Source: a virus. Taken from it: a stretch of 53,424 nt of DNA. The position numbers were made by a program, and so were the translations under genes. Every line of letters starts with the position of its first letter. Positions within the stretch are counted from its first letter, which is position 1. Shown here one piece after another: positions 1-31,301 of the stretch. Location of the stretch: IMG/VR virus record IMGVR_UViG_3300006945_000001, positions 1-53,424 of that record, one strand, 5' to 3'. The notes beneath the pieces are model-generated. The model was not told where the DNA came from and did no database searches. It worked only from the letters and a program-made list of their open reading frames with translations.

Positions 1-125
1 CCAAGGTCCCGGTAGATGGCCGGGGCGACGATGTGTTGCAGAGCGAAGAGCCCGGCGTGGCAGTACGGGATCAGTCCAAGGCTTCGTTCCGGCTGCAGGT
101 CTTCAAGTATAGCGCCCTCTTGCGG
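1..125 (-). pseudogene. Remnant of a terminase large subunit C-terminus (flanking prophage)
   Basis: Read on the minus strand, this segment encodes a stretch matching the C-terminal part of GpA-type terminase large subunits: ALYLKTCSRNEALD, then after a one-base frame change YCHAGLFALQH and APAIYRDLG. The intact terminase at 28916-30847 has the same blocks (VLYVKTYNRNEALD, YCHAGLFALQH, APAIYRDLG). At DNA level the two copies are clearly homologous but differ at many positions, so this is not a recent duplication of the resident gene. The frame is broken just after the LD, where one base appears to be missing. Homology fades near base 125, inside the 3' end of the recombinase frame, which marks a junction. 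Inferred: flanking DNA from a second, related phage. The rest of that gene lies outside the window. Confidence 0.75.
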
Positions 126-1657
126 CGGCTTTCCAATCTGCTAAACCCCACCGGCCTGACTACCTTCCCTCCGTGCGGCAGAATCATACAGATGGCCTTC
201 ACTGTGTAGTCTGCCACGTGAATTTCCGGCACCACTGCTGCCAGAATCCTTCGCTTGTCTTCCAGCGCCAGGAACCGCCAGTCGGAGAACGGCTGGAATA
301 GCTGCGATAGCTCCTCAGCCGTCACCTCCGGCGTGGGCGCTTCGCGCATCAGCGCCGTCTGGGCCAGCTTAAGGTCGCGCTCGACCGCTTCCAGCCGCCG
401 GTTCCGTTCTTCCACGTTGATCACGCCTTCGAAGTAGGCGTCAAGCACGCGCTGCTGCTTCTCGCGCAGCCCCGTGATCTGCGCTTGGAGCCGGGCCATT
501 CGCACCTGGCTGCCTCCTTGCTGCCGGCGTCGCTCCTGCTCGCTGACGATCTCCTGCAAAAAGCCGTTGTCGGTCAGCCGCACGGCCAGCAGGAAGTCCA
601 GCTTGTCTTCCAGTTTCTCGCGGCGCATGTAAAGCGTCTGGCAGGTGCGGAGATACTGGCGGCCCTTGCACACGTAATAGTCGAACAGCTTTCCCCTGTG
701 GCTGCTCTGGCTGTAGATCAACAACTGGCACGTGGCGCAGCGCAGAAAGCCGCCGTAGGTGAACTTGCGCCGCGTCTCCACGCGCGCCCGGCTGCCGCGC
801 TCGCGCTTGGCTTCGACCATTTTCTGCACGCGGTTGAAGTCGGCCTGGCTGATCAGGGGTTCTTCGATCACGCGCACGCGGATGATTTCGTCCGGGCTGC
901 GCAGGGCTTTGCGGCGGTCGCCCTGGCGTCCATCGGTTTTGACGCGCAGAGCGCCGGGGCTCATATCGCGCCGCTTGTCGTACACCCGCCAGCCCGTATA
1001 GATCGGGTTACGCAGGATGATGGGCAACGCGCTGCGCGGGATGCCCGCCTTGCGCGATAGCTCGCTGTAGCAGGTGACGCCGCTCAGAAATAGCCGAAAA
1101 GCCTCGCGTACTTTCTCAGCCTCGGGCTTGTAGTGCCAGCCGGTTTCTTTGCTGAACCCCACGCCATACGGCCAGGTGATATGCCCCGACGGGCACGCGC
1201 CCGCTCGCCGCTTTTCTTCCTTGGCCGTCCAGCTTCGCTCCAGCAGTTCGGAGCGTTCCAGCCCTGCGATGGCCGCGCGGATGGCTCCCATCAGCCTGCC
1301 GGTCTTGGAGTTGAAATCAATCGGGCCTTCGGGCAGGTAGAGGATAGTCTTGCTGTCCACAAAGGCTTGCAACAGGGCGTAGTCGCTGAAATTCTCGGGG
1401 CGCATCAGGCGCGAGAACTCGCGCGCCACGACACCGTGAATCTCCGGGCTTTGGATCAGCTTGAGTAGCTGCTGCATTTCGGGCGCAAGCAGGACGGCCG
1501 CGCCGGAGACATCGGCCATCTCGACCGAGTGCGTGATCTCCAGCCCGTAGGCCTGCGCTGTTCGCCGGTTGATGGCCCTCTGCGCCGGAATGCTGGCGCG
1601 GTCGTTTTCTGCCTGTGCTTCCGTGGACACACGAATCAACTCAATGACCTTTTTCAT
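71..1657 (-). CDS. Large serine recombinase (phage integrase), 3' end fused to flanking terminase DNA
   Basis: This site-specific recombinase would integrate and excise the phage. The N-terminal resolvase domain (about residues 1-150) carries the RVST motif with the nucleophilic serine near residue 11. It is followed by a Recombinase domain, a zinc-ribbon with CATC and YYVCKGRQYLRTC cysteine pairs (about residues 318-350), and a coiled-coil region rich in R, Q and E (about 370-445). The length of 528 aa fits large serine integrases. The last 20 or so residues are not integrase sequence: they read into the terminase remnant, so the native stop has been replaced by a junction. It is transcribed toward the window edge, as expected for an integrase next to an attachment site. 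A TTGACT-17-TAAATA promoter lies upstream of 1927 and probably serves the small gene and this one. Confidence 0.93.
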   Translation of the reverse strand: MKKVIELIRVSTEAQAENDRASIPAQRAINRRTAQAYGLEITHSVEMADVSGAAVLLAPEMQQLLKLIQSPEIHGVVAREFSRLMRPENFSDYALLQAFVDSKTILYLPEGPIDFNSKTGRLMGAIRAAIAGLERSELLERSWTAKEEKRRAGACPSGHITWPYGVGFSKETGWHYKPEAEKVREAFRLFLSGVTCYSELSRKAGIPRSALPIILRNPIYTGWRVYDKRRDMSPGALRVKTDGRQGDRRKALRSPDEIIRVRVIEEPLISQADFNRVQKMVEAKRERGSRARVETRRKFTYGGFLRCATCQLLIYSQSSHRGKLFDYYVCKGRQYLRTCQTLYMRREKLEDKLDFLLAVRLTDNGFLQEIVSEQERRRQQGGSQVRMARLQAQITGLREKQQRVLDAYFEGVINVEERNRRLEAVERDLKLAQTALMREAPTPEVTAEELSQLFQPFSDWRFLALEDKRRILAAVVPEIHVADYTVKAICMILPHGGKVVRPVGFSRLESRRKRALYLKTCSRNEALD

Positions 1658-1699
1658 TTTTCGTCTCTTGGTGTAAAATGCGCCGCTTTCATGGGCAAG

Positions 1700-1927
1700 T
1701 TAGACCAGGATCACGGGCAGCAAGACGGTGACAGCCATGACGATGGGCGTCTGCCCCAACCCTACCAGCAGCCGCGCCAGGCTCAGCGCCCGCTTTTCGT
1801 CGCCTGTTTCCAAGGCTTTGCGCATCTGTTCCATCATTTTTGTGCGTTTGCGGCTGATTTCCATCGCCGCTTCCACCAGCCCACTGCCAGCCTCTTCACC
1901 GTCCGCAACCGGAATCTGCGCGTCCAC
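1700..1927 (-). CDS. Small protein with C-terminal hydrophobic segment, upstream of integrase
   Basis: A 75-residue product that I do not recognise. It starts with GTG behind a strong purine-rich site (GGAGAGGGGG). The N-terminal half is charged and helical, with a run rich in K, R, M and E (about residues 25-50). The last 16 residues are hydrophobic and could be a membrane anchor. It ends 42 bases before the recombinase start and is co-directional with it, so they probably share the promoter at 1965-1993. Small genes beside serine integrases are sometimes recombination directionality factors, but the hydrophobic tail argues against that here. The function is unknown. Confidence 0.55.
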   Translation of the reverse strand: MDAQIPVADGEEAGSGLVEAAMEISRKRTKMMEQMRKALETGDEKRALSLARLLVGLGQTPIVMAVTVLLPVILV

Positions 1928-1951
1928 GGCCCCCTCTCCCCTGTGGTTTGT

Positions 1952-1965
1952 AAAGCGGGCGCTTT
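1952..1965. promoter_or_regulatory. Palindromic operator candidate at the integrase promoter
   Basis: AAAGCG-GG-CGCTTT is a perfect inverted repeat with 6-base arms. It sits immediately downstream of the -10 box, where the transcript would start, so a repressor bound here could block integrase transcription. The binding protein is unknown. Confidence 0.45.
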
Positions 1966-1993
1966 ATTTAGCAGGACGTAACGCGCAAGTCAA
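1965..1993 (-). promoter_or_regulatory. Predicted sigma70-type promoter for the integrase unit
   Basis: On the minus strand there is TTGACT, a 17-base spacer, and TAAATA, close to the bacterial housekeeping consensus. The -10 lies about 38 bases upstream of the GTG at 1927. Confidence 0.6.
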
Positions 1994-2007
1994 CAGGAAA
2001 ATTTACC

Positions 2008-2038
2008 TCAAGGTGTAGCTCCAGACGCGACACCTTGA
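2008..2038. repeat. Inverted repeat (9-base arms) between divergent promoters
   Basis: TCAAGGTGT and ACACCTTGA form perfect arms around a 13-base spacer. The right arm overlaps the -35 box of the rightward promoter at 2035-2064. A regulatory site is more likely than a terminator, because no T-run follows. Confidence 0.5.
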
Positions 2039-2064
2039 CTCATTGCGCACAATTTGATCCTAAT
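2035..2064 (+). promoter_or_regulatory. Predicted promoter for the 2182-3827 cargo pair
   Basis: TTGACT, an 18-base spacer, then CCTAAT. The -35 overlaps the inverted repeat at 2008-2038, suggesting repressor control. The leader to the ATG at 2182 would be about 110 bases. Confidence 0.4.
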
Positions 2065-2181
2065 GGCCGACTTCTGTAGCGTAGCTGGCTACCCATGCGG
2101 GCCTTTTCCTATTGAATTGCTTGGGCTTTATGAATGCGATAACATTGCGGCACCGATGAGCCCGCGCGGGGCTCTCGACGT

Positions 2182-3387
2182 ATGTCAGCATCCATCGAGC
2201 AGAGCGCAGGAGCCATTACGGCGTGGGTTGCTTTGTGGTCTGCCGCTTGGGTCTGGTGGACGTACAAAGGAACCGTCAGTGAGAAGAATGAGTCCCGGCG
2301 CGAAGCTAGGCTCAACTTGATCCGTGCTCTGAAAACAGAACTTGAGGTCATCTTTGAGTGGGTTGGTGACGGCTATAAACAACTTACCTTGGAGGAGTAC
2401 AAGCGTAAAGCAGATGCCGAGCTACCGGATCATTGGCTACGGACTTGGTATAGCCCTTCTCGGATAATCTTTTCCTTCCCCTACGCAACCATTAAGAACG
2501 TCATAAGTCATCCCCACCTGCATGAGCTGCCTGATGACGTTGTTAGGGCGCTTGCTTTGTTGGACCACTCGATCACTGGTTTCCTCGATTCCTATCATGC
2601 CCTGAGGGACTTTGTGGCCGAGCACCCTGAACTTGCTTTCAAAGTGGACTGGAAGTTGAGGAATGGCGTGAAGGATTTCACAAATGAAGAGCGTATGTTC
2701 AAGGAAGAAGTGTTTCGCCGAAACTACGGACTTCACATTAAACGAATAGGGTGTGCAGATTCACCGGAATCCGAACACTGTCTTTACCGCACGTATCACT
2801 CGGCCAAGCAAAGCCTAGAAGCGCTCGACGAGTGGATCAGACCGACCCTCACACCTGCATTGTTTCGGGCTGGGGATATCCTGGCAACGGTGTTGTTTCT
2901 TCTTGGCCTCTTGGTTGCCGTATTCGTGATCAAGAAGATTATCGTGGAAGGAGGTTCCATCATGCTTTGGCGCTTTGTCGATGCGTGGATTGTGCTCGCA
3001 ATTCTGGGCGTTTGGTCTTGGGCATGGTGGAGAGCACAAAACCCGCTATCCCTACACTTGGAGAGCACCCGCTCGGCCATCGAAGCTGGCTTGTCATTCG
3101 TGAGTATCGCGCTTCCGTTGGTCGTTGGGGCCATGCTTCTGACGTTTCAATCGGACGCAAATCCTCTGCCCGAGCGCGTCGTCCGAAACATGTTGGTAGC
3201 TACGTATTGGTTCATCGGCTCGGCCACACTGGCAATCTTGAATCTTTCAAGGCTTCCCTCCATGCCATTGAAGAACGACAGAATTGAGGATAGACTGACG
3301 CCTGTACTTGGCATTGCTCAGTTCATTTGTCTGCTCGCTGGTTCCGGGCGAATGGTTGTTGGAATCCGCGTGCTCTGGATAAGCTAG
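2182..3387 (+). CDS. Multi-pass membrane protein of unknown function (cargo)
   Basis: A 401-residue protein I do not recognise. A hydrophobic, tryptophan-rich segment at about residues 12-27 is followed by a long soluble, mostly helical region (about 30-225). Four further hydrophobic stretches lie in the C-terminal half (around 236-252, 265-285, 305-325, 333-350), with another near the end. It is on the plus strand, opposite to the neighbouring phage genes, and appears less GC-rich than the core, which suggests an acquired lysogenic-conversion gene. A second small gene follows 17 bases after the stop. Membrane proteins with a large soluble domain expressed from a prophage often act in superinfection exclusion or abortive infection; that role is an inference from context only. 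Confidence 0.7.
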   Translation: MSASIEQSAGAITAWVALWSAAWVWWTYKGTVSEKNESRREARLNLIRALKTELEVIFEWVGDGYKQLTLEEYKRKADAELPDHWLRTWYSPSRIIFSFPYATIKNVISHPHLHELPDDVVRALALLDHSITGFLDSYHALRDFVAEHPELAFKVDWKLRNGVKDFTNEERMFKEEVFRRNYGLHIKRIGCADSPESEHCLYRTYHSAKQSLEALDEWIRPTLTPALFRAGDILATVLFLLGLLVAVFVIKKIIVEGGSIMLWRFVDAWIVLAILGVWSWAWWRAQNPLSLHLESTRSAIEAGLSFVSIALPLVVGAMLLTFQSDANPLPERVVRNMLVATYWFIGSATLAILNLSRLPSMPLKNDRIEDRLTPVLGIAQFICLLAGSGRMVVGIRVLWIS

Positions 3388-3404
3388 CAACGGAGGGTAT
3401 CAAA

Positions 3405-3827
3405 ATGGGCGAGTACTATCCTGGTACCGAATACTTCCTGCGTGCAGAGAGGTCAGTTAAGAAGGCTCTTAAACCGGTAAAGCTAGCTATGGAACCGAAG
3501 ATGTTACGCACCGTTGTACTTGTGGCATCTGCGAGGGCGACAAGACAGAGAAAACGTGAGCCCAGCCTAGATGACATCCATGCGGCTCTAGGTCTTCTGT
3601 GTTTTCTGCCCTGGTGGCCGAAAAAGGCCGCAGAGCGCAAAGCAGCACGGCAGCTACGGAACGAAATCGCATCCCTAGGCTTTGCTTTTCCCCTCGGCAG
3701 GCTGCCACGCTCGTTCTTCAGGTCGTACTCCTCTTTGATGCGGTCGCTATCCGTTAAGAGTTCGGTTCATGGAGCCCTAAGGCCTTTTCTCGGCCATATG
3801 GGGGGTGCGGGGTCTGTTGGTCGCTGA
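3405..3827 (+). CDS. Small basic hypothetical protein, partner of 2182-3387
   Basis: A 140-residue product. The ATG at 3405 has a GGAGGG ribosome site at 3392-3397; upstream in-frame codons overlap the preceding gene and lack such a site. The sequence is rich in R and K, with a short hydrophobic patch around LGLLCFLPWW, and no recognised domain. It lies 17 bases after the membrane protein gene on the same strand, so the two are probably co-transcribed. It ends three bases before the convergent gene at 3831-4166. The C-terminal third is compositionally odd (serine, arginine and glycine), and the true gene end or a small frameshift there cannot be excluded. Confidence 0.5.
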   Translation: MGEYYPGTEYFLRAERSVKKALKPVKLAMEPKMLRTVVLVASARATRQRKREPSLDDIHAALGLLCFLPWWPKKAAERKAARQLRNEIASLGFAFPLGRLPRSFFRSYSSLMRSLSVKSSVHGALRPFLGHMGGAGSVGR

Positions 3828-3830
3828 GTT

Positions 3831-4166
3831 TTAACGATTAGGCAACCGGAGGATCTTGACGCAGGCGGCGAAGACGTCGCCGCGCTTGCCATATTTCTCG
3901 CGTAGCTGCTCGATCAGCTCTACAGTCCTGGGCGTCAGCTTGTAGGTCATGCCGACCATCGCGCCGTCGCCCCGCTGGTTCACCTTCACGCGCCTTTTCT
4001 GCCGGATCAGCAGTTCGGTGCCCACCTGTACGGCGCGACCCTGCGAGCCATAAACGGGTGCTTGCTTGCGGATGGCTTTGACCACCCAGCGGGGAAGAAA
4101 GTACCGCTTGGCGACACAGCGGGTGTTGTACGTTCTGGGCCTGGGCCGTCGAACTCCTCTGCTCAT
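3831..4166 (-). CDS. Small basic protein, possible DNA binder
   Basis: A 111-residue protein with a strongly basic N-terminal half (runs such as RGVRRPRPR and RQKRRVKVNQR) and a C-terminal helical segment (LTPRTVELIEQLREKYG) that resembles the helices of ribbon-helix-helix or phage accessory DNA-binding proteins. No family can be named with certainty. The ATG at 4166 follows an AAGGGGG-like site. It has phage-core orientation and is divergent from the XRE gene at 4346, with 179 bases between them that contain the palindrome at 4297-4313. Confidence 0.5.
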   Translation of the reverse strand: MSRGVRRPRPRTYNTRCVAKRYFLPRWVVKAIRKQAPVYGSQGRAVQVGTELLIRQKRRVKVNQRGDGAMVGMTYKLTPRTVELIEQLREKYGKRGDVFAACVKILRLPNR

Positions 4167-4296
4167 ACGCCTGGCCCCCTTGAACCGACCAGTTGGCTGG
4201 ATTGTAGGCTACCTGTCACGCCAAACGCTACAGTAAGTTTCACAGCACACCTCCAGGAACACCTGATGCTCGGCCATGAATAGCGAAGGGAGATTG

Positions 4297-4313
4297 TATC
4301 CCATTTTGGGATA
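4297..4313. promoter_or_regulatory. Perfect 17-base palindrome, probable XRE operator
   Basis: TATCCCA-TTT-TGGGATA is a perfect inverted repeat centred about 40 bases upstream of the XRE gene start at 4346. Its size and position fit a dimeric helix-turn-helix repressor acting on its own promoter. Confidence 0.6.
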
Positions 4314-4345
4314 TACGGAAGCGGCTCGCCATAATCCGGGCCGCC

Positions 4346-4567
4346 GTGAAAGACCCCACCTACCGCCAGAAGTATCGGCAATTCTTGCGGCGGCTCAGGC
4401 AAGCCCGCCAGGAAGCAAAGCTCCGACAGGTGGATGTGGCAAGAAAGCTGTGCCGCCCGCAGTCGTTTGTTTCGAAGGTCGAATCAGGCGAGCGCCGCGT
4501 GGACGTGATCGAGCTCGCCGAATTCGCCCGCCTCTACCGCAAACCAATCTCTTTCTTCGTGGTTTGA
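4346..4567 (+). CDS. XRE-family helix-turn-helix regulator
   Basis: A 73-residue single-domain DNA-binding protein. The HTH_3 fold is clear: LRQARQEAKLRQVDVARKL forms the first helices, RPQSFVSKVESGERR contains the recognition helix with the family's SxVSKxExGxR pattern, and VIELAEFARLY is the closing helix. It starts with GTG at 4346; no good ribosome site is visible, so the transcript may be nearly leaderless. The palindrome at 4297-4313 just upstream suggests autoregulation. It is convergent with the helicase gene at 4586-6652. It may control that gene, the opposite gene at 3831-4166, or only itself. Confidence 0.85.
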   Translation: MKDPTYRQKYRQFLRRLRQARQEAKLRQVDVARKLCRPQSFVSKVESGERRVDVIELAEFARLYRKPISFFVV

Positions 4568-4585
4568 ACTTGCGTGGATAGGCAG

Positions 4586-6652
4586 CTACAGGTTGTTCAC
4601 ATCTGCCACGATCTGCGCCGCTTCGGCTGGAGTTAGACCGCCATTCCGGTTAACGCTGGGGACATTCATTTCGTTAAGATATTGGGACCTTGGGAGCATT
4701 ACCGTAGGTCGCTGTTGGAGGCGGAAAGCACTTGGGCCAGTGTGTTGCGCTGCGTGTGTGATGATACAAGCGGCCATCGCTCGCGTAACAGAAACATAGA
4801 AGAGCCTGCGTTGCTCGATCACGAGGCCGGCAGCTTGCAGCGCCCGAAAGCTGGGCATGATGCCCTGTTCAAGAGAGGGAATGAAGACAACCTTGCCGCT
4901 TAGCCCTTTAGCCCCATGCATTGTTAGGATTCGGATTCTCTTTTGCTGGACAAAGGTAGGAGGAGGGGTTTGAGCAGCTCCCAGTCTTTGATTAACCGAA
5001 TCGAGAATTGAGCGGCGGTCAGCATCATTGTCGGCCTCAAAGAAGCTCAGGAGCTCCTGGAGAGTCATGTCGCCGGGCAAAGCGCCAGCCAAGGCGTTCC
5101 AAGTAGCTATATGGTTCGCAGCCTGAGCAGAACCCTGAAATACCATACCAAGCAACTGCGCAACGTCCCCTGCCCTGTTGGTGAGCGTGTCTGCAAGATT
5201 CCACGTGCTGACGGCCTGGATCATCGCCGTAACGCGGATCACAGCGTTGGCAGATCTCGTTGGCAACCACGGAGGGGGCGCTGCTAAATAGAAGAGATCG
5301 TGGAAGTTCTGATTATTCGCGACACAGGCATCTGCAACTGCTCGGGCGGTACCAGGGCCGACTCCGCTAAGCAGGCCAAGCAGTGCGCGATGAGCCACGT
5401 AATCTGGTTCGCCGGTGCCAATGTCCCTAGCAATTCTCAGGGCCGAGTACACTGCCCGAATTGGATCAACGTCCGTCAATGCCTCGCCCGGTGGAGGATC
5501 ATAAGGCAAGCCCAAATTGCCAAGCTCCTGGGCTATGAGTTGGAGTTGAAGCCCGCGGTCTGAGATCAGGACGAGTATTCCGTCCTCTTGTCCTGCCATA
5601 CCTGCATTGATCAGCTCTTGGCACGACGCGGCAATCGCCCGCGCTTCGTCCTGTTCCGAGGGAAAAGACCACACGCACAGACTACCTCCCACAGGGGGAG
5701 CAGCGTTGTGATACAGAGAGACAAGGTTTTTCGGAATCCTATTGGGGTTGACAGAGATCATCTGAGTTGCTGGGCCTAGAATCTGCGGAGTACTGCGGAA
5801 GCAGTCGGTCAACACATGTGTTGAGGAGTGCGAATAGGCAGTTGTGAACTGCACCAGTCCCGTGGGGTCTGCGTGCCTGAATGAGTAGATGCTTTGGTCA
5901 TCGTCCCCCGCAACAAAGAGGACAGCCCCTCGGTTGGCCAGATAGCGTACGAATTCTTGGTCACAAGCATTCAGGTCCTGGAATTCGTCAACAATTAGAT
6001 GTTCAATGGTGGGCAGCTGCGCAGGCTGAATTTGTCCCATTCTAATCGCTTCAACACAGCGATAAATCACCTCGCCAGGCAGAACGCAACAGTACAAATT
6101 CGTACGAGCAGGATGGAAAACATTGAAACCCTGCACCTCCACTGGGGTGATCGCTGCTTGGTTTATGAAGTTCGGGTTAAGGGTTTGCCACGCCGCGTCG
6201 TGAGCGGCACGTATTTCTGCTGCTCGGCCAGGTGTGCAGCCGAGCGAATTTGCAAGTTCGATATCATACACATGCCGCCTCTCCCAATCATCAAGCACGG
6301 CAGGATTGGCGGGGTAAAGCGTCGCTAGCAGGTTTGCGGAGCGGAGAATGCGCAGGGCAAGGGAATGCATGGTTGAAACACGAACCGCTACTGCGGCTTG
6401 CGCGCAAGGTTGGTTAGCGCAGTAGGCGGTTATGCGTTTCCGGAGTTCCGTGGAAGCGGCCACAGTGAAGGAAATCACGTAAACATTTTGAGGTGTGGCC
6501 CCTGCGTTCAAGACGTGAGCAACGCGCTTTTCGATGGTTTTGCTTTTGCCTGTTCCTGGACCAGCTACCAACCGTACTTGAGGTGAAGCATCGCGTGCAG
6601 CATTCCATTGTTGCTGTTCGGCAGCAGCTTTCTGGGCTGGGGTAATCGCCAT
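4586..6652 (-). CDS. UvrD/Rep-type superfamily 1 helicase
   Basis: A 688-residue ATP-dependent 3'-5' DNA helicase by family. Visible motifs in order: Walker A GPGTGKS (residues 31-37), Walker B DEFQD followed by the GDDDQSIYSFR motif III region, and motifs V/VI near the C-terminus (MHGAKGLSGKVVFIPSLEQG and RRLFYVSVTRA). Length matches UvrD/PcrA. It stands alone: the 8059-8916 nuclease is co-directional but separated from it by the lysis genes. It is not a standard part of lambda-like genomes, and by eye the gene is less GC-rich than the tail genes, so it is likely cargo. UvrD-like helicases occur in several phage defence systems (GajB of Gabija, for example), but no GajA-like partner is present. 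A role in replication or repair of phage DNA is the alternative. Confidence 0.93.
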   Translation of the reverse strand: MAITPAQKAAAEQQQWNAARDASPQVRLVAGPGTGKSKTIEKRVAHVLNAGATPQNVYVISFTVAASTELRKRITAYCANQPCAQAAVAVRVSTMHSLALRILRSANLLATLYPANPAVLDDWERRHVYDIELANSLGCTPGRAAEIRAAHDAAWQTLNPNFINQAAITPVEVQGFNVFHPARTNLYCCVLPGEVIYRCVEAIRMGQIQPAQLPTIEHLIVDEFQDLNACDQEFVRYLANRGAVLFVAGDDDQSIYSFRHADPTGLVQFTTAYSHSSTHVLTDCFRSTPQILGPATQMISVNPNRIPKNLVSLYHNAAPPVGGSLCVWSFPSEQDEARAIAASCQELINAGMAGQEDGILVLISDRGLQLQLIAQELGNLGLPYDPPPGEALTDVDPIRAVYSALRIARDIGTGEPDYVAHRALLGLLSGVGPGTARAVADACVANNQNFHDLFYLAAPPPWLPTRSANAVIRVTAMIQAVSTWNLADTLTNRAGDVAQLLGMVFQGSAQAANHIATWNALAGALPGDMTLQELLSFFEADNDADRRSILDSVNQRLGAAQTPPPTFVQQKRIRILTMHGAKGLSGKVVFIPSLEQGIMPSFRALQAAGLVIEQRRLFYVSVTRAMAACIITHAAQHTGPSAFRLQQRPTVMLPRSQYLNEMNVPSVNRNGGLTPAEAAQIVADVNNL

Positions 6653-6764
6653 TTTTCCCTGACCCTCGCCGGGAGGATATCACTCCTGAGGAGAAAGACT
6701 AACTATGAACATCGAAAGGAGTCTAGGTCACAAACGATGGGGTCGCTGGGCGCGGGACCGGAGC

Positions 6765-7364
6765 CTACCAGCGTGCGGATTGGTAGCGGGGCCAGAGAAG
6801 AAACAGGATGCGGCGGGGATACTCGCGGTTCTCGCGGAGGGCTGCTGCGCTGCGGTTGCTGTGGTGCTCGACGCAGCAGAACCAGCGGGAAAGTGCGGGG
6901 TCACAGGATGGCCCGCCATGCGCGGCGGCAAGCTGGCGGTCTTTCCGGACGTTGCCCAGGCCGCCGTTGTAAGCCGATAGCGTAGCGCCCCAGCGGTGCA
7001 GCCCGTCGTCGCGGAACTCGGTCAGGCGCTCCCACAGCCACAGGTCATACGTCACCAGGGCGCGCAGCGCCCAGCGCGCATCGAGCGGCGCGGCGTCGCC
7101 AAGATCGGCAGGGTACAACTGTGCGATCCAGGCCGCCGTGCCCGGCATAAACTGAGCCAGGCCAAGCGCGCCCACGGGACTGCGCGCATCATCGCGCCAG
7201 CCGCTCTCCTGGTGAACCTGCGCGGCAAAGAGCGCCACAGGCGCTTCCAAGCCCCAGGCGGCCCGCGCTTCTCGCGTCAGTTGCGCGCGATAGATGTTCG
7301 CTTGCGCCGGAATCTGCCCCCAAGCAGGAACAGCCAACAGCACGATAATAAGAAAGGAACGCAT
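6765..7364 (-). CDS. Lytic transglycosylase (SLT-like endolysin)
   Basis: A 199-residue peptidoglycan-cleaving enzyme. The first 16 residues form a signal peptide or signal-anchor (a hydrophobic run after MRS, ending near AWG). The SLT/GEWL-like domain follows, with the catalytic glutamate in HQESG (near residue 52), then GALGLAQFMPGTA and LSAYNGG, the usual conserved blocks. The start codon overlaps the stop of the holin gene upstream, so the two are translationally coupled. Last gene of the lysis cassette; it would degrade the cell wall from the periplasm at the end of the lytic cycle. The N-terminal signal suggests Sec-dependent export independent of a large holin pore. Confidence 0.9.
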   Translation of the reverse strand: MRSFLIIVLLAVPAWGQIPAQANIYRAQLTREARAAWGLEAPVALFAAQVHQESGWRDDARSPVGALGLAQFMPGTAAWIAQLYPADLGDAAPLDARWALRALVTYDLWLWERLTEFRDDGLHRWGATLSAYNGGLGNVRKDRQLAAAHGGPSCDPALSRWFCCVEHHSNRSAAALRENREYPRRILFLLWPRYQSARW

Positions 7365-7678
7365 TACAGTCCTTGCGTAATGGCGAGAATAATGGCCGTG
7401 TAGAAGATCGCGACGCCCAGGAAGATCAGGCCGTCTTTGATCGTCTTATCCTGGTCCAGGACGGCGGAAAGGTCAACGTAATGGAACACCTGGCGGCGCA
7501 GATAGTGGGCCACTGCCACGGCCACGCCCACCAGCACGATCTTCCAAGCAAGCACACCTAACTGTTGCAGCGCCAGCGCCGAACCCTTGCCAGCGATGTA
7601 GCCCATGCCCAGCGCCGCCAGCAGCCAAGCTAGGCTTGTCTTCCGGCGCACCAGCAGATTCCGTAGCCCCTCGATCAT
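7364..7678 (-). CDS. Holin-like membrane protein with three predicted TM segments
   Basis: A 104-residue protein. The start at 7678 is chosen because GAGGAG lies just upstream and the frame above it overlaps the neighbouring gene. Three hydrophobic segments are visible: TSLAWLLAALGMGYIAG, VLAWKIVLVGVAVAVAHYL, and the C-terminal GLIFLGVAIFYTAIILAI. Small size, three TMs and the position directly before the transglycosylase gene all point to a class I-type holin that permeabilises the inner membrane. No specific holin family is identified from sequence alone. Confidence 0.72.
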   Translation of the reverse strand: MIEGLRNLLVRRKTSLAWLLAALGMGYIAGKGSALALQQLGVLAWKIVLVGVAVAVAHYLRRQVFHYVDLSAVLDQDKTIKDGLIFLGVAIFYTAIILAITQGL

Positions 7679-7685
7679 AGTCTCC

Positions 7686-7994
7686 TCACTTGCCCGCTGC
7701 CTTTGCCGCCTGCCAGAGCGCGAGCGCGTAGAGAATGATCGCGTCAGCAACGACCAAGCCGCCCAACAACCACCAGCGGAAGCCTTCCAGCTTGCTGATG
7801 CGTTCGGAATGGTTGTTGAGGCGCCGCTCCGCAACGACCAGCCGCCCTTCGTCGCCGGCGTCGCCTTCCGGGTTGCCGAACAGCCGCGTGTTGAGCGTGT
7901 CCATGCGGCGGTTCAGCTTCTGCAGCTCGGCCAGAATTTGCTGAATTCCTTCAGCGCTCAGCTGTTGCACACTCCGCTCGGGATCGCTGCTCAT
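7686..7994 (-). CDS. Coiled-coil protein with C-terminal TM (holin partner candidate)
   Basis: A 102-residue protein with a soluble N-terminal coiled coil (IQQILAELQKLNRRMDTLN, then a second helical stretch VVAERRLNNHSERISKLEG) and a single TM near the C-terminus (WWLLGGLVVADAIILYALALW). This layout resembles XhlA-like or hemolysin XhlA-type lysis accessory proteins. It is the first gene of the lysis cassette and ends eight bases before the holin start. It may modulate lysis timing; this is inferred from architecture and position. Confidence 0.65.
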   Translation of the reverse strand: MSSDPERSVQQLSAEGIQQILAELQKLNRRMDTLNTRLFGNPEGDAGDEGRLVVAERRLNNHSERISKLEGFRWWLLGGLVVADAIILYALALWQAAKAAGK

Positions 7995-8058
7995 CGGCAG
8001 AAGTTCTTACCACAGCATCGAAGAATCTGTGATGTCCTATTTGCGACGACAGGACACT

Positions 8059-8916
8059 TTAAGGTGTACCTGCTGGGCGAATTAATTTGACGAAGTCCGG
8101 GTTCGGTGGGGCCAGGGCTGACTCACAAAGGCGAACGACATTAAACTCGCAGACCCGGCACCTATTTTGATGTTGGGTTGGCATTGCCGCCCGCGAACCG
8201 CGCCAGAAGGCGATAGGCTCACGTATCAGCTTTCTTGCGCTAGCCAAATCAAATCGGTACGCAAAACAGGTTGCACCCTCTTCTGTGTGCGTTGCGTAGC
8301 CTTGCTTTGCCAGAACCACCTGTCGCAATTGCTGGTAAGTGGTGAGGAGCTTCTTCTCCAGAGCTTCGAGTCCTTTCTGCCTTTGCTCCGGCGACAGGAA
8401 CACCAAAATCGTGGCCAGTTGGCGAGTGTCAAACTTATTGTGATGGAGCAACAACCCATAAAGTGCCAGTTGGAGGCGGTGATCGGGGTAGGGTTCGCGT
8501 CTCCGACTGAATTTGTAATCAGCGAGCAGCAGTGCCTTGGGGCCATCGAACTCAACCAAGTCAGGCTTCCCGATGACTGGTACACCTTGGAGTCGACCAG
8601 AGAAAGGGAACTCTCGGAGCAGGATTCTCTTTCCGCTAGCAAGCTGTTCTCGTAGTTGTTTTTCGGTGATTGGTGTGGCGCGGGCAGTCAATTGCTCGTG
8701 GGCTTCGGACCCCGCACGCTGCTCTGCTGTTTCCTTTTGCACCTCTCGATGCAGCAACCTGAGCTCAACTCTCTTTTCACAGTACAGCTGGTCAGCAATA
8801 TCTGAAGCCCTGACTGCTTCGAGGCCATAGCGCTCCTTAATACGCTTTCTTACTTCTGGTGAGGACGGCTTCTTGCGGGATCGTTTGGGCTTCGGAATCC
8901 AGTGCGGAACTCCCAT
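8059..8916 (-). CDS. Cas4-like PD-(D/E)XK nuclease with Fe-S cysteine pattern
   Basis: A 285-residue protein with the hallmarks of the Cas4/AddB-like exonuclease family: an N-terminal cysteine in YCEKR (about residue 49), the nuclease core GKPDLVEF then LLADYKFS (D...DYK), QLALYGLLL (motif QxxxY), and a C-terminal cysteine cluster NRCRVCEFNVVRLC. The four cysteines would bind a 4Fe-4S cluster. In the family such enzymes are DNA exonucleases. No CRISPR array or cas1/cas2 is visible in the window, so this is a stand-alone copy. It lies between the tail fibre and lysis genes, a common cargo position, beside the unknown gene at 8963-9664. Confidence 0.85.
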   Translation of the reverse strand: MGVPHWIPKPKRSRKKPSSPEVRKRIKERYGLEAVRASDIADQLYCEKRVELRLLHREVQKETAEQRAGSEAHEQLTARATPITEKQLREQLASGKRILLREFPFSGRLQGVPVIGKPDLVEFDGPKALLLADYKFSRRREPYPDHRLQLALYGLLLHHNKFDTRQLATILVFLSPEQRQKGLEALEKKLLTTYQQLRQVVLAKQGYATHTEEGATCFAYRFDLASARKLIREPIAFWRGSRAAMPTQHQNRCRVCEFNVVRLCESALAPPNPDFVKLIRPAGTP

Positions 8917-8962
8917 GACATTCTACCGCCCTTGCTCTAAGGCCAATGCGAGCCTTGGAGGA

Positions 8963-9664
8963 TTAGGCTCGTTCTGAGATAAAGCGTAGGAATTCGCGGC
9001 CCCAATTAGTGATGCGGGGCTGCCATAAGCCGTGCCCGGAAACCATCACGTGTATGCCTCCACCGGGCATCAGACCACGGGCTTCTAGGTCCTTGATGAT
9101 CTGGTCGTAGAATTCGCGTTGACCTCGAAGGTCCGGTATTCCGGCTTCCAAAATGTGAGACTGACCGCCCGCCGTGATGTTCGGGCGTCGGATATTGTGG
9201 CGTTCAAACCAGGCCTCAGGGGAATCGAAAAAAGCTAGGATGCGAAGATGCCAAGGCGTGAGGCTATCCACGTGCTCTAGGAAAATCTGCTGCTTTGTTT
9301 CGTCTGGCGCGCCTGGGAGCGCCGCATTCACAATCGCATTACGCAGTGCTCTCAGCTTTTCTTCCTGATGGGCTCGAGATGCAATCTGCGAAGCGTGCAT
9401 TGCCGTAGTTACGAAGGCCTCGTTCTGTGAGAGCTTCTCGGGCGAGAAATTCTCGAGCTTCTGCTTGATTTCTTCGATTGCATCGGCCAGAGTCTGAAGC
9501 CATTTCTCTCGCCGTTTTTCGAGCGGAGGGCTGAAGATTAGTGACAGCGTTTCGGAAAGAACCCCGCCCACGACCGGCACAGCGGAGACGGCCCCCTTCA
9601 CGACAGCGTGGGCTACGTCGGCGGCTGAAACCTCAGGTTTTTCACTATTATCTGGCATGGTCAC
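8963..9664 (-). CDS. Unrecognised protein in tail-lysis cargo spot
   Basis: A 233-residue product; start GTG at 9664, with an ATG two codons later. Near the N-terminus is a small hydrophobic, glycine-rich segment (VKGAVSAVPVVGGVLSETLSLIF). A charged helical region follows, with notable blocks such as PPLEKRREKWLQTLADAI, ALRNAIVNAAL, and LTPWHLRILAFFDSP. The C-terminal 60 residues look like a small globular domain ending in GREFLRFISE. From memory I believe similar proteins recur as scattered prophage or defence-island genes, but I cannot name a family. A TAGAAT box upstream of the start (minus strand) could be its own -10. It is near the Cas4-like gene (46 bases) and may be co-transcribed. 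Confidence 0.65.
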   Translation of the reverse strand: MTMPDNSEKPEVSAADVAHAVVKGAVSAVPVVGGVLSETLSLIFSPPLEKRREKWLQTLADAIEEIKQKLENFSPEKLSQNEAFVTTAMHASQIASRAHQEEKLRALRNAIVNAALPGAPDETKQQIFLEHVDSLTPWHLRILAFFDSPEAWFERHNIRRPNITAGGQSHILEAGIPDLRGQREFYDQIIKDLEARGLMPGGGIHVMVSGHGLWQPRITNWGREFLRFISERA

Positions 9665-9714
9665 GCCTAGTTAGTGAGACGCGAAATTCTAGCATGACCG
9701 TACAGCTTGGCATC

Positions 9715-10263
9715 TTATTTCCAGGCGGGAATGTAGGCGGTGCTGCCGTCTGCGGTTTTGACCTGAATCCAAGTATAGGGTGCGGTCGGAGTGACAGCAG
9801 GGCAGTTCGCGCCGAGCGATGCGCTGCCCGCGCCGGTTGTGTTGGTGCCCGCGAATTGCGGAATGCCCGCGATCTTGAAATCGAACGTCCAAGCCGTTCC
9901 GTTGTAGAGCATCAGCGCGTCGTCCTGCTCTACGTAGGCCAGCCAGCCCTCTTTCGGCGTGTAGAACTCCCAGGCTGGCACCTTCGTGTCGGTGTCCGTC
10001 GTGGCGATCTCGGTGGACCAGACGGCGATCTTCCCGGCTTGGCCTGACCATGCGCCGGTGGGGGCGGAGCCGATGATGTAGGCGTCGCCGTTCGCCGGGC
10101 TGCCGGGCGGCGTGTTCACGCCCTGCTGCTTCACCGTGGCTTGCACCAGTTGATCGAAGGCGCGCAGGAAGGCGCGGAAGCCGTTGATGTGGCCCGCGCC
10201 GATGTTGCCGTAAATCATTTTGCCCAGCTTCGGGCCGTTGGTGACGCTAGCGTGGTCAGGCAT
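9715..10263 (-). CDS. DUF2793-type tail fibre-associated protein
   Basis: A 182-residue protein whose central block (about residues 50-125) matches the DUF2793 pattern seen in tail fibres of GTA-like and lambdoid phages: PPGSPANGDAYIIG, APTGAWSGQAG, WEFYTPKEGW and LYNGTAW. It is the last gene of the tail module and overlaps the stop of the J-like gene by eight bases. It likely forms part of the distal tail or host-contact structure. Confidence 0.8.
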   Translation of the reverse strand: MPDHASVTNGPKLGKMIYGNIGAGHINGFRAFLRAFDQLVQATVKQQGVNTPPGSPANGDAYIIGSAPTGAWSGQAGKIAVWSTEIATTDTDTKVPAWEFYTPKEGWLAYVEQDDALMLYNGTAWTFDFKIAGIPQFAGTNTTGAGSASLGANCPAVTPTAPYTWIQVKTADGSTAYIPAWK

Positions 10264-12715
10264 TCCTTCCCCCTAATTCAAGTCCCAGGCACATTCCCAT
10301 GCCGCCCATCGTGAAGGCGTCGGTGTCCCGGACGGTGCCTGTCAGGCTGCCGTTGATTGGCTTGATTCTGAATCGCGTGGTCTTAATGCCGTCCTTGTCG
10401 TCGGCGAACCGCTGCAAGGCCGTGTAGACCTGAGATGTGCCGGTGAGCGCGGCGTAGGTCTGGCGCAAAACGCCGCCCACATAGACTTCAACCGTGTAGT
10501 TGCCCTCCGGCGCGGCGGCCTGATTGCCGGCGTCCTGCTGGACGACGCTGGTCTGGCCGGTGCGATGCCGATGCGCCCAGGTTATTGAAGCGTCGCCTAC
10601 CGTCGCCACGGGCCAGTACGCGCCGTTTACTTGCACGTTGCCGGGCGGGTAGGGCTTCTGCGCTCGGCTGGCCATCGCACGGCTGACGGCGCTGACGCTG
10701 CCAATCGGCACGGTGTTGCGCGAGTTGAAGGGCAGGCACTTGGCGCTGATGGTCTGGTCAGCCGGGTAGTCATCCTCTCGCGTGAGGCCCGAACCGTCGC
10801 TGACAAAGGACACACGTGTACCCACCGAGTGATCTGCGGGGATCGTATCGAAGATTCCGCGGACGATGCCGCTGATGGTGTAGGTGCCGTCTCCGTTGTC
10901 GGTGACGGTCTGCCAGCTCATCCACTCATCGTCAATCACCAGCAGGTTGTCGCCGCGCGCGCGGCCCCCGGCGTCGGTCGAGACCAATCGCTCCAGGTCC
11001 TTGCCGCCCTGCACGATGAAGCCAGTATTGTCGAGAGCCGCCGTGTTTCGCGGGTAGGCCGATTGCAGCACTCCGCTGGGGCAGAAGATCTCCACGGTGC
11101 TCGACTGATAGAAGCCCGCGCCTTCATCCGTCCAGACCTCGTAGCCGGTGCTGGTGCCATCGCCGCGCACCGCCGCGACCACGAGCCGCCGCTCTCCAGC
11201 CTCGGTCAAGTGGTAGGGCACCTCCTGAAGGAACTGCGCCGTGGGCGCAACCGGGTCGGTCAGCGGGTCAGTCCATCCGCTGCCCGTGGGCGGCGTGTAG
11301 CCGGTGAAGGCCACAGCGAAAATGTCCTCTACGAAATCAATCTGAATCTCGCCCGCTTCGAGCGCGCCGTAATTAATGCCGGTGATGCGTACGACCATCC
11401 CGCTGATACCCAGCGGAGCCCAGGAGAACTTGAACACACCGCCGATGCGGAGATTCCACGCCTTGCGGTTGGCCTTGAGCCGCCCGCGCGCCAGCGGGTA
11501 GCTGTGCGTCTTCAGCTCGCGCATCGCAACCTTCTGCGCGATGGTCGGATTCGAGAAGCCGCGGAAGGGGATGGTGTCGCTCGATAGCTGGCCACGGATG
11601 GCGAAATTGGCCATCTCCTGCGCCTGGACGACGCGCTCCTTGAAGCTGGTGCGGTCAAGGTAGGTGACCTTGACCTCATTGAGTGTTTCTTCCCAGGAGC
11701 CACGCGAGAACTCCGGGGCGTCCAGGATGTCGTTCTCGTTCAACTCCAGCAGCGAAGGGATGTTGTAGTCGGCGCGCGCCAGCGTCAGGTTCCACAGCCC
11801 GGTTGCCGGGTCGGTGTAAAGCACGCCGTCAATGTGGCGCAGGATGTCGTCCACGACCTGGTCGGCGGCCGCTTCCGAGTCCAGTTGAAGGCTCATGCCC
11901 ATGCCTTCGGTTGCCAGCGTGTTGCCCGCAGCTTGGAAGCTGACCAGATTGAAGCGCGTGCTGGGAATGCCTAGGCCCCAGACGGGGTTGGTCATCAGTT
12001 CGTAGATGATCTCAGCCGGGTTCGCATCGCCGCCGATGTCGTGGTTGTTCCCCGCGAGGCCAAGGTTGCGGGGAAGGCGCTTCACCACGAAGGCCAGGTT
12101 CTTCATGTACTGGCTCGTGCCGACGTAAAGCTGCTGGGCGACGGCATGGCACATCCCGCGATACGCGGGTGCTGGAGACAGGCCCAGCTTGCTCGCGAGG
12201 TAGCTGTTGCCCTGCTGCGTCTGCTGGCCGCGATAAAAGAAGATCGTGCCCTTCAGCCCGCCCTCTTTGTCGTCGCCGCCGAACAGCCTGGGCTGGTCAA
12301 TGGTGATCTTCAGGTAGTCCTCGCCGCCCGGCCCGTTGACCAGCGCGGACGTGAAGGGCACGTTCTTGTCCTCACCCGCGACGATCTGAAGCAGGCTGTC
12401 CACTACGCCGTGGCACAACGCCATGTGCAGCCCGACGAAGTACTTGTAGCCGACCGTGACCTTCTTCGCGCCGATGCCCAGGAAGCCGCCCGCCTTCTTC
12501 TTGATGGGATCGATGCGCAGATCGCCGAACCACACCACGTTTGGCGCGGCCAGCTTCACCGTTCCGAAGATGGCGGGGATCACGCGGCCTTCCTCGGCGG
12601 TCGGGGCCTGGAAGTCGCCAAGCGAAGAAGGCTGCACGTCCTTCGGCTTCTTTTGCAGCAGGGCCGAAAGAACTGTGGTGCCCACGAACAGAAAGAACGC
12701 GAACCAGAACCCCAT
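10256..12715 (-). CDS. Tail tip / host-specificity protein (J-like)
   Basis: An 819-residue protein occupying the tail-tip position just before the fibre gene. It begins with a short hydrophobic segment (FWFAFFLFVGTTVLSALL) and continues with a region typical of phage tail-hub proteins, including IPAIFGTVKLAAPNVVWFGDL and YFVGLHMALCHG, then beta-rich and fibronectin-like sections toward the C-terminus. Its gene follows the BR0599-type protein by two bases. By analogy with lambda J or gp27/GTA hub proteins it would form the tip and contact the receptor. The hydrophobic N-terminus is unusual for a virion protein and worth noting. Confidence 0.8.
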   Translation of the reverse strand: MGFWFAFFLFVGTTVLSALLQKKPKDVQPSSLGDFQAPTAEEGRVIPAIFGTVKLAAPNVVWFGDLRIDPIKKKAGGFLGIGAKKVTVGYKYFVGLHMALCHGVVDSLLQIVAGEDKNVPFTSALVNGPGGEDYLKITIDQPRLFGGDDKEGGLKGTIFFYRGQQTQQGNSYLASKLGLSPAPAYRGMCHAVAQQLYVGTSQYMKNLAFVVKRLPRNLGLAGNNHDIGGDANPAEIIYELMTNPVWGLGIPSTRFNLVSFQAAGNTLATEGMGMSLQLDSEAAADQVVDDILRHIDGVLYTDPATGLWNLTLARADYNIPSLLELNENDILDAPEFSRGSWEETLNEVKVTYLDRTSFKERVVQAQEMANFAIRGQLSSDTIPFRGFSNPTIAQKVAMRELKTHSYPLARGRLKANRKAWNLRIGGVFKFSWAPLGISGMVVRITGINYGALEAGEIQIDFVEDIFAVAFTGYTPPTGSGWTDPLTDPVAPTAQFLQEVPYHLTEAGERRLVVAAVRGDGTSTGYEVWTDEGAGFYQSSTVEIFCPSGVLQSAYPRNTAALDNTGFIVQGGKDLERLVSTDAGGRARGDNLLVIDDEWMSWQTVTDNGDGTYTISGIVRGIFDTIPADHSVGTRVSFVSDGSGLTREDDYPADQTISAKCLPFNSRNTVPIGSVSAVSRAMASRAQKPYPPGNVQVNGAYWPVATVGDASITWAHRHRTGQTSVVQQDAGNQAAAPEGNYTVEVYVGGVLRQTYAALTGTSQVYTALQRFADDKDGIKTTRFRIKPINGSLTGTVRDTDAFTMGGMGMCLGLELGGRNA

Positions 12716-12717
12716 GC

Positions 12718-13512
12718 CTACTCCAGCCCGTTAAACGGGTTGCGCCCAGGGATGAACTCGAACCCGAAGAAGTTGGGGGCGTTGTTGAACTTCGTGTTGC
12801 AATCGCTGAAGCTGCGGTTGCAGCCCGCGTAGGCCGTAATCACGTCGCCCGCGACCAGCCCGGCCATCGCATTGAGCAGCGTCACCGTGTTGCCGACGTG
12901 ATTGATGATCATGCGGCGCTCGGTGCCCTTCTCGATGTAGCCTGCGTTGAACCAGTCGTTCGGTTTCGTGGCGAAGGCCGCTGCCTGAATCGTTTCTCCG
13001 TTCACGCTGGTCACTGTGGCCGCGACCTTGAACAGGTTTTTGTCCACTTGGCAGCTGGAGTCGTAGAGGATGTGATTGCAGGGCTTCTGATAGCGTGGGC
13101 CAGGCACGCGCTTCTTCAGCACATCGCGCTCAGGCACCACGGTAAGCTCGCAGTCCTCACCGAACGTGGCCATCGTCACGCGGCCCGTGAAATGCGTCAC
13201 GACTTCGCTGTCCGGCTCGCCTTCATGGCCCCGGAAGATCACCAGGCTGAGCGGCGTGCTGGGGATGTAAGAGACAAAGAGCAGCGCGATGGCGTGCTCC
13301 TTCGGCAGCGTCACCTTGATTGAGCCGCTGGTTGTTTCCTGGCCCTGGCCTGTGGCCGTGCGGATGATGGCTTCGGGCTCGTAAATCTGGCCGTTGTAGG
13401 TGATCTTTCGGTCCGCGCCGGTCAGCCGCCAGGTTTGCGTCTCGGTCTGGAAGAGGTAAAGCTCGAACGGCTGGCCGCTGTACGGGCTCGTCTCGCGCGC
13501 CGCGTAGGTCAC
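12718..13512 (-). CDS. BR0599/DUF2163-family tail tip protein
   Basis: A 264-residue baseplate or tail-tip protein. The start is GTG at 13512: AAGGAGGT lies just upstream, and GTG overlaps the TGA of the previous gene. The C-terminal signature is characteristic of the BR0599 family: AGCNRSFSDCNTKF, then NNAPNFFGFEFIPG with cysteines around it. The family is widespread in siphophages and gene transfer agents between the tape measure and the tip protein, as here. Further cysteines occur in KPCNHILYDSSC. Confidence 0.85.
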   Translation of the reverse strand: MTYAARETSPYSGQPFELYLFQTETQTWRLTGADRKITYNGQIYEPEAIIRTATGQGQETTSGSIKVTLPKEHAIALLFVSYIPSTPLSLVIFRGHEGEPDSEVVTHFTGRVTMATFGEDCELTVVPERDVLKKRVPGPRYQKPCNHILYDSSCQVDKNLFKVAATVTSVNGETIQAAAFATKPNDWFNAGYIEKGTERRMIINHVGNTVTLLNAMAGLVAGDVITAYAGCNRSFSDCNTKFNNAPNFFGFEFIPGRNPFNGLE

Positions 13513-14123
13513 GCGGGGACCTCCTTCGGCAATTCCACGAAGTCCAGCACGGCTTCGGCCAAGTCGCGGCCATGCCAGGTGAGCTCGGGGTCGTCCGTCG
13601 CCAGACGGCACAGCGTCAAGAAGGAAACCATCGTGGCCTTTGGCACCAGTGCGCCGATGCTGCTATCGAGCGTCAGTACTTCGTTGCTGGTGCCTTCGCT
13701 GGCCCCGGCGATCTTGCGGTAGTGCCTGGTGCCATCGGGCAGCAGGAAAGCGATGTGCCGCCGCGCCACAGTTGGAAACATGAACTTGGTGTAGCCGATC
13801 TTGCTGATGCTCAGGTTCACGTTGCCCGCCGATAGGTCGGTGTCCATCTCCAGGTCGCGGTTCCATGTGGGCACCCACACGGGCACCAGCGTGCCCTTGC
13901 GGGCCGCGATAAAGTCGCGGTACGACTGAATCTCGGTCCTGCCATCCAGAAGCCACACGAAGCCTCCCGGCCTGACCACGGCCACGCCGCTGCGATCCCT
14001 GGCGCGCAGTTTCCCCGTGCGAGAATCGAGCCGCGCCATGCTTCGCCGGTGAGTAAACTCCCGGTGATTCACGGCGCTTGGCTCGATCTCGAACACATCG
14101 AAGCCCTGGTAAACAGTCGGCAT
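13509..14123 (-). CDS. Tail protein (distal tail module)
   Basis: A 204-residue protein within a run of overlapping tail genes. Its start overlaps the stop of the gene at 14123-15193, and its stop overlaps the BR0599-type gene, so translation is coupled throughout. Aromatic and beta-rich sequence (VWLLDGRTEIQSYRDFIAAR, LVPVWVPTWNRDL) resembles a DUF2460-like distal-tail component. No catalytic motif is seen. The specific family is not certain. Confidence 0.7.
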   Translation of the reverse strand: MPTVYQGFDVFEIEPSAVNHREFTHRRSMARLDSRTGKLRARDRSGVAVVRPGGFVWLLDGRTEIQSYRDFIAARKGTLVPVWVPTWNRDLEMDTDLSAGNVNLSISKIGYTKFMFPTVARRHIAFLLPDGTRHYRKIAGASEGTSNEVLTLDSSIGALVPKATMVSFLTLCRLATDDPELTWHGRDLAEAVLDFVELPKEVPA

Positions 14124-15193
14124 CAGACCACCTCACACTCGAACTCGGCCTCGAGCTCGGCCACGGCATTGTTCATTCGGAGCACGCCGACCTCATCCGG
14201 CAGGCGGCCAGTCAGCAGCGGCACGACGTAAGTCCGGCCGTCCGCAGCCCAGGCTTGTGTCGTGGGGGCGGTGAGCGTGATGCTGCCCGCCGCAACGGTC
14301 TGAATGCTCAGGGCTTCAACCGTGTGCATGTCGCGCCAGAGCATCATCAGTCCGTCTGCGACGAACTTCCTCAGCGTGGTGTCCACCTGAATCACCGTGG
14401 CCCCGATGTTCGCATTCGCCAGCAACAGCTGGGCGTCTGGCCAGAAGGGAACGCCATAGATGCGTCCCTGCCAGCCCCACAGCAGGGCGTGAAGCGCGGC
14501 GGTGTCCCGCACGTCGAGCGTCAGCACCTTGTAGCGCAGCCGGGTGCGCGGGTTGGTGCGCAGTTGAACGCGCTGCTCTTTGTCGGCGTAGGCGTTCATG
14601 ATCTCGGTCAGGTACTCGGTGCGCTCCATGATTGGCTCAGTCCAATCCGGGTCGGGCGAGAACACCGTAATGCGGGTGCCCGTTACAAGCAGGTCTGTCC
14701 CGCTGATTCCGGTGAACACGAAGACCACCGTGTTCTGAATCTGCGCGTCACCATCTTGGGGCACCGTGGCCTGGAACTGGCGCGACTGCATGGCACCGAA
14801 GACCAGCGGCACACCGAACGGGTTGTCAATCAGCGTTCCCCCGCCGCCCGCGATGTCAATGCGCACCATCGTGCGCAGCGTCTCTCGGAAGGTGTTCCAC
14901 ACGTCCACACTGAAAAGGTTTGTGCTGAGCACAAAGCCCAGCTTCTTTTCGCGCGGCGTGACGATGATCTTCTCGAACAGCTCGCTGCCGGTCATCGGTT
15001 CCAGCGTCCCCCCGTAGAGCAGAGGGATTTCCTGGATGGGATCGAGCGTCTGCGGGCCGAACAGCATGACGGACTGCGCGCTCGCTCCGGGGTAGCCGGA
15101 GACGCCAGCGGCGAACTGGCTGAGAGACGCCGACGCGCCGGGATGTTGCGGCGACGCGATGCCAGGAAGCAGGTTGCCGTCGAAGATAGCCAT
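14123..15193 (-). CDS. Tail protein (distal tail module)
   Basis: A 356-residue structural protein lying two bases after the gene at 15196-16188 and overlapping the next gene start. It is beta-rich, with a middle section FGVPLVFGAMQSRQF and a C-terminal half similar in style to other phage tail components that contain WGWQGRIYGVPFWPD. Position between two paralogous tail proteins and the DUF2460-like protein suggests a distal-tail or hub role. No named family. Confidence 0.7.
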   Translation of the reverse strand: MAIFDGNLLPGIASPQHPGASASLSQFAAGVSGYPGASAQSVMLFGPQTLDPIQEIPLLYGGTLEPMTGSELFEKIIVTPREKKLGFVLSTNLFSVDVWNTFRETLRTMVRIDIAGGGGTLIDNPFGVPLVFGAMQSRQFQATVPQDGDAQIQNTVVFVFTGISGTDLLVTGTRITVFSPDPDWTEPIMERTEYLTEIMNAYADKEQRVQLRTNPRTRLRYKVLTLDVRDTAALHALLWGWQGRIYGVPFWPDAQLLLANANIGATVIQVDTTLRKFVADGLMMLWRDMHTVEALSIQTVAAGSITLTAPTTQAWAADGRTYVVPLLTGRLPDEVGVLRMNNAVAELEAEFECEVV

Positions 15194-15195
15194 TC

Positions 15196-16188: not shown

Positions 16189-16196
16189 TGCCGCTC

Positions 16197-19969: not shown

Positions 19970-19972
19970 CGA

Positions 19973-20182
19973 CTACTCCTTCAGGATTGCCGGTAACTCC
20001 GGGGTCCTCTTGCGTTTCGTCGCGCCAGTGGCGGCCAGAACCGCCCACGCCAGATACTCGACGTGGTAGTCGCGGCGCGCGTCCTCGCGCAGCTTGTTCT
20101 CGTAGGCGGCCAGGGCTTCGGCCAGCGGCCAGCGCGTGATCTCGGCGTAGCGGGACACGTCATAGCCCGCCAGCTCGCGCAC
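19973..20182 (-). CDS. Second tail-assembly chaperone frame (T-like, possibly by frameshift)
   Basis: A short coding stretch of about 70-85 residues between the first chaperone and the tape measure gene. From the GTG at 20182 it reads RELAGYDVSRYAEIT..., and the same frame is open upstream with convincing protein (NDYGEWGQLV just before), so the coding region begins before any good start codon. This frame is -1 relative to the 20209-20667 gene and stays open through its 3' end. That is the classic G/GT layout, in which ribosomes slip to make a long fusion protein. I see no canonical X XXY YYZ heptamer, so initiation at the GTG remains possible. It ends four bases before the tape measure start. 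Confidence 0.65.
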   Translation of the reverse strand: MRELAGYDVSRYAEITRWPLAEALAAYENKLREDARRDYHVEYLAWAVLAATGATKRKRTPELPAILKE

Positions 20183-20208
20183 CAGCTGGCCCCATTCGCC
20201 GTAGTCAT

Positions 20209-20667: not shown

Positions 20668-20735
20668 CCATCCCCTCCTGTGAAAAGGGAAGCGGCTCTA
20701 CCGCTCCCCCGGCGTCCAGGTTGCGGATCGCCCGT

Positions 20736-21512: not shown

Positions 21513-21532
21513 TTACCTCCAAGAGATTTGTC

Positions 21533-22614: not shown

Positions 22615-22616
22615 GC

Positions 22617-22913: not shown

Positions 22914-22919
22914 CCCCCC

Positions 22920-23111: not shown

Positions 23112-23142
23112 CAGTGCTCCTCCTTCAAGTGTCGGTTGCGCC

Positions 23143-24165: not shown

Positions 24166-24177
24166 GTTCGCTCCTCC

Positions 24178-24552: not shown

Positions 24553-24578
24553 TGCGTTCTCCTCTCTCGTATAGCTCG

Positions 24579-27667: not shown

Positions 27668-27694
27668 GATGCGACGCAGTATGGGGACACCTAA

Positions 27695-27715: not shown

Positions 27716-27818
27716 GTTAACGAGACGCGTCAGAAGAGGGCGGCGAATCCGGTTTCTCTGGTGCGTAGCGCGACTTGGTTGACCCTGATGTAGAATGCCG
27801 CCATCTCGGAGGTGTCAA

Positions 27819-31295: not shown

Positions 31296-31301
31296 GCTGC
31301 C

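Follow-up and report, generated by a model that had tools for sequence, protein, structure and literature searches.

IMG/VR record IMGVR_UViG_3300006945_000001, a stretch of 53,424 nt analysed here at its full length (hereafter the window), almost certainly represents one complete prophage lying in a bacterial chromosome between the 3' end of a DCC1-like gene and a prophage relic, as judged from sequence comparison. It is an ordinary serine-integrase prophage with an unusually well documented site and one suggestive scar. Both junctions, the core, the empty site and the relic can be read directly from the DNA. The features of the element and its junctions are as follows.

121..53303: prophage, a complete temperate phage with a GpA-type terminase, integrated at a TG core, in all likelihood by its own large serine recombinase
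1..120, minus strand: left host flank (B half-site side), a C-terminal scrap of a frame-broken terminase gene that is part of a chromosomal prophage relic
71..1657, minus strand: large serine recombinase, with a length of 528 aa as integrated here and of 530 aa if the frame is followed through attP
121..122: core dinucleotide TG at attL, common to attL, attR and the empty site
123..150: P arm of attP, within the 3' end of the integrase gene, forming a dyad with the P' arm
53274..53301: P' arm of attP, forming a dyad with the P arm; the phage/host boundary falls at the same base in G001:C167
53302..53303: core dinucleotide TG at attR, common to attL, attR and the empty site
53304..53424, minus strand: right host flank (B' half-site side), identical to G021:C2 27012-27132
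53362..53424, minus strand: last 21 codons of a gene for a DCC1-like thiol-disulfide oxidoreductase, with the stop codon at 53359-53361, followed by the spacer to the core

The limits of the phage follow from a second prophage, located in genome G001, which carries the nearest relative of the integrase (L004, 94% identical and the sole close relative found; none was found in viral_contigs). On the left, the match between this prophage and the window ends at 122 (L004 9068). Beyond that point lies a chromosomal gene which, from its translation, we take to resemble benzoate-CoA ligase. On the right, another G001 contig follows the window as far as 53301, beyond which it enters chromosomal genes. 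Since the G001 prophage has the same two end points in the phage sequence, the phage occupies 121-53303 of the window. A prophage-free site colinear with the G001 insertion is present in genome G021 (81% over 602 nt), with the core bases diverged. The two integrases, 94% identical, occupy unrelated chromosomal sites, one being the site of the window and G021 and the other the site in G001. The MAG containing L004 (JAIMBE010000009.1) is titled 'Bacillota' while relatives of the group are titled Terriglobia and Acidobacteriales (G003 and G002), and it may be mislabelled.

The arms at both phage ends, GAGGGTTCTGCAAGATTGAAAGCCGTAG and TGGGGTTTAGCAGATTGGAAAGCCGCCG, form a dyad, as is expected of a serine-integrase attP. 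They flank a dinucleotide core, which recurs at each junction and in the empty site. The window prophage has TG here and the G001 prophage has AG at the same place. A perfect inverted repeat, TGCAAC-GG-GTTGCA, extends from the TG core into the host side of attR (53302-53315).

The empty site was located in G021, a genome with no integrase match at E <= 1e-60. Window positions 1-122 joined to 53304-53424 are identical to G021:C2 26890-27132 (243/243, 100%), so the flanks are contiguous in an element-free genome. This match excludes a chimera and assigns both flanks to one insertion; an origin of the flanks in two different insertions was rejected on the same grounds. The DCC1-like gene in G021 matches PF04134 (5.8e-21), and its 3' end lies 55-57 bp from the core. 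A weak match between the right flank and a lon-like gene in a Granulicella MAG (80% over 50 nt) was dropped, as G021 has the DCC1-like 3' end there. The right flank had no match in phage and plasmid collections, and exact 22-23-mers of the two flank regions were absent from viral_contigs. Judging by the reconstructed site, the phage inserted into the spacer that follows the DCC1-like gene, without interrupting anything functional.

The window and the empty site share exactly 123 nt at each end. This is how a prophage contig would end in a de Bruijn assembly at k=123, provided that the sample contained both the lysogen and the empty site. MEGAHIT with k-mers up to 123 was used for a JGI-processed data set (PMC6478937). 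A branch of the assembly graph at 123 nt would then account for the ends of the flanks, a reading which assumes an assembler setting whose use for this record we infer. Virus records may bear exactly one k-mer of host DNA per end.

The product of 71..1657 matches, in order, the Pfam families Resolvase (2.5e-14), Recombinase (4.5e-9) and Zn_ribbon_recom (3.1e-5, its 24.7 bits being slightly below the curated cut-off of 25.3), as well as the PHROG 95 integrase profile (1.9e-52). It has the three domains and the length of about 500 aa that characterise large serine recombinases, and is a predicted phage integrase that would catalyse recombination between attP and attB; the activity itself we infer. 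The gene spans attP (window 71-123 and 53240-53303). As a consequence, its last 16 residues (KRALYLKTCSRNEALD) and the stop codon, at 71-121, come from the host flank. In the free-phage form, the codons for the final 18 residues lie in the right end of the prophage, and these residues are conserved in both phages: read across attP, both integrases are 530 aa long with the tail (T/S)TAF(N/H)LAEPSPSLIYLPI, which supports the reconstruction of attP. After integration the protein is 528 aa long in the window prophage and 589 aa in G001. Since the tails are unrelated in the two lysogens, the swap is probably tolerated rather than used.

Two loci of the phage itself are relevant to the left flank and the relic:

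28916..30847, minus strand: own intact terminase large subunit of the GpA type (PF05876, E 1e-76; PF20454, E 9e-82)
27722..28934: variable cargo locus between the terminase and portal genes, on both sides of which DNA matches to related phages stop

Window positions 1-121 match the phage's own terminase at 29005-29125 with 75% DNA identity (122 columns, E about 2e-17). The flank is closer to other phages of the same genus (86% for L018/G009 and 83% for L014). Its minus strand encodes KRALYLKTCSRNEAL in one frame and YCHAGLFALQHIVAPAIYRDL in another, the terminase frame being broken by two 1-nt indels. These are real and not contig-end errors, because G021 carries the identical sequence. The homology to terminase stops at 121-122, not at 125. 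The left boundary is a real integration junction.

Much of the first-pass annotation of this DNA holds up against these results. It had recognised the left end as the C-terminal part of a divergent terminase in a broken frame, which the 75% and 86% identities and the two indels bear out, and had placed a serine-integrase attachment junction next to the recombinase gene, now confirmed by the G001 boundaries, the TG core and the empty site. The last recombinase residues were rightly attributed to the target, the short direct repeat anticipated at the junctions exists as the TG at 121-122 and 53302-53303, and the empty site foreseen in another genome is that of G021.

The same annotation went on to propose that the phage had inserted within a terminase gene belonging to a resident prophage and had thereby disabled that prophage's packaging, and that the other part of the gene would lie beyond the right end. 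Terminase C-terminal DNA does end at the core on the left. However, the right flank is the DCC1-like 3' end and not terminase, the right boundary has no N-terminal half of a terminase, and in the empty G021 site the truncated, frame-broken terminase is already joined to the DCC1 flank, which makes a split very improbable. No working prophage was disabled, since the relic terminase was broken before the window phage arrived. What survives of the insertion reading is an integrated prophage beside terminase-derived DNA; the split gene and the disabled resident prophage do not. That the left flank is an assembly chimera, named in that annotation as the alternative, or that window 1-121 is the P' arm of the free phage can practically be dismissed, since the flank is short and frame-broken like some contig ends but matches a separate genome at 243/243 positions and the true P' arm is at 53274-53301. 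A piece of terminase at the edge of a prophage need not signal one phage disabling another.

The target of the window phage is instead the edge of a decayed 2.4 kb relic of a related prophage, situated to the left of the site on G021:C2. Three pieces of it can be recognised:

G021:C2 26838-27010: terminase scrap, 75-86% DNA identity to the phage genus
G021:C2 24875-26776: gene for a 634-aa protein, in a place equivalent to the terminase-portal cargo locus
G021:C2 24577-24727: portal-side scrap, matching the phage region that adjoins the portal gene, 69-84% DNA identity to the genus

All pieces lie in phage order and orientation, as befits a prophage relic. Going by what the empty site preserves, the relic had lost everything except the terminase scrap, one cargo gene and the portal-side scrap before the window phage arrived. 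The 634-aa product had no match in Pfam, PADLOC or the compared relatives. Since the DNA separating terminase and portal forms a variable cargo locus throughout the phage genus (in the window phage and in G009, G006 and G011), the gene is probably cargo of the old phage. Synteny of G001 with the DNA on the relic side (left) ends at C2 24286, beyond which the contig stops.

Elsewhere in the window, 41115-44384 encodes a 1089-aa protein matching type IIG restriction-methyltransferase models (PADLOC 4.5e-82). Directly behind this gene, at 44411-45574, an RmrA/IrrE-type HTH-peptidase protein is encoded.

The origin of the sharp edge of the relic deserves separate consideration, as the homology to terminase breaks off precisely at the TG core. 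Ordinary deletion, with the position of the core being due to chance or the new junction having created a usable site, is an explanation whose chances we consider evenly balanced. It agrees with the other edges of the relic, which are ragged as in ordinary decay; an agreement to about 2 nt would, however, be unlikely if the two positions were independent.

Nearly even chances may be granted to an earlier integrase-mediated crossover that made the edge, later reused by the window phage. A TG in the terminase gene of the related prophage, acting either as a pseudo-attB or by way of a prophage inserted at that place, would have recombined with a TG on the DCC1 side. The crossover would have deleted the intervening DNA, leaving a terminase-TG-DCC1 junction, and the window phage would have used this junction again. 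Compared with ten terminases of the genus (those of nine relatives and the window phage's own), the relic agrees at 20-22 of 28 bases up to the TG and at 8-10 of 30 beyond it, the latter being chance level. TG is present at that terminase position in four relatives of the genus, and the relic and the window prophage are oriented alike relative to the DCC1 side. A small model built on three non-terminase half-sites also places the intact terminase site among the best 0.3-4% of TG sites. On the other hand, a search for an ancestral, relic-free form of the DCC1-side site found none. The chemistry is a further difficulty: serine integrases require a directionality factor for recombination between attL and attR, and pairings other than this or attP x attB are not normally used (PMC3783163). 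Because of these pairing rules, a two-step route, with insertion into terminase followed by excision across two prophages, would fit best.

Extending the crossover explanation, we tentatively suggest, as a somewhat improbable generalisation, that integrases of this phage group use the terminase TG of related prophages, in which case the hybrid junction would be a deletion scar that marks a destroyed prophage and is still usable as a site. The window phage's own terminase has CTTCTTA at 29116-29122, versus CTTCTTG or CTTTTTG in the four relatives, and therefore no TG core; TA in place of TG could spare the phage from self-attack. Should an integrase have made the scar, prophage relics could serve as a record of earlier integrase crossovers, by which successive related phages would erase one another. 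Irrespective of the scar, both ends, the core, attP and the empty site are settled for a metagenomic phage of an uncultured host group.

Helper-embedded PICIs integrate in late genes of prophages, in one case in a terminase gene; they have tyrosine integrases, and interrupt intact late genes of live helpers that are restored by excision (PMC10111431). The window resembles them in that an integrating element is joined to phage late-gene DNA. Unlike them, it has a serine recombinase, a full phage and a one-sided dead terminase scrap: no intact late gene of a live prophage surrounds the element, and the integrase is not of the tyrosine type.

The presence of 94%-identical integrases at two unrelated sites is reminiscent of the multi-targeting large serine recombinases (PMC10083194). 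Two targets were seen here, while the multi-targeting criterion is one 90%-identity cluster at more than three unrelated targets. The core also differs, TG versus AG, and because of this the window and G001 phages may each be site-specific.

In phages with integration-dependent immunity, such as BPs, the attachment site lies within the repressor gene and integration alters its product (PMC4557955). The window phage is similar in having its attachment site within a gene whose product changes on integration, and different in that the gene codes for the integrase rather than the repressor and the new tail varies between sites. Since the new tail differs between sites, a defined function for it is doubtful.

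A further comparison is with the general family of large-serine-integrase phages, which includes phiC31, Bxb1 and Listeria A118. The window phage shares with such temperate phages (PMC3783163) the resolvase, recombinase and zinc-ribbon domains, an attP adjoining the integrase gene, dyad arms around a central dinucleotide and a single crossover giving attL and attR. It departs from the typical members in two respects: attP lies inside the integrase reading frame, so that the C-terminal tail changes on integration, and the target of the prophage is the edge of a prophage relic.
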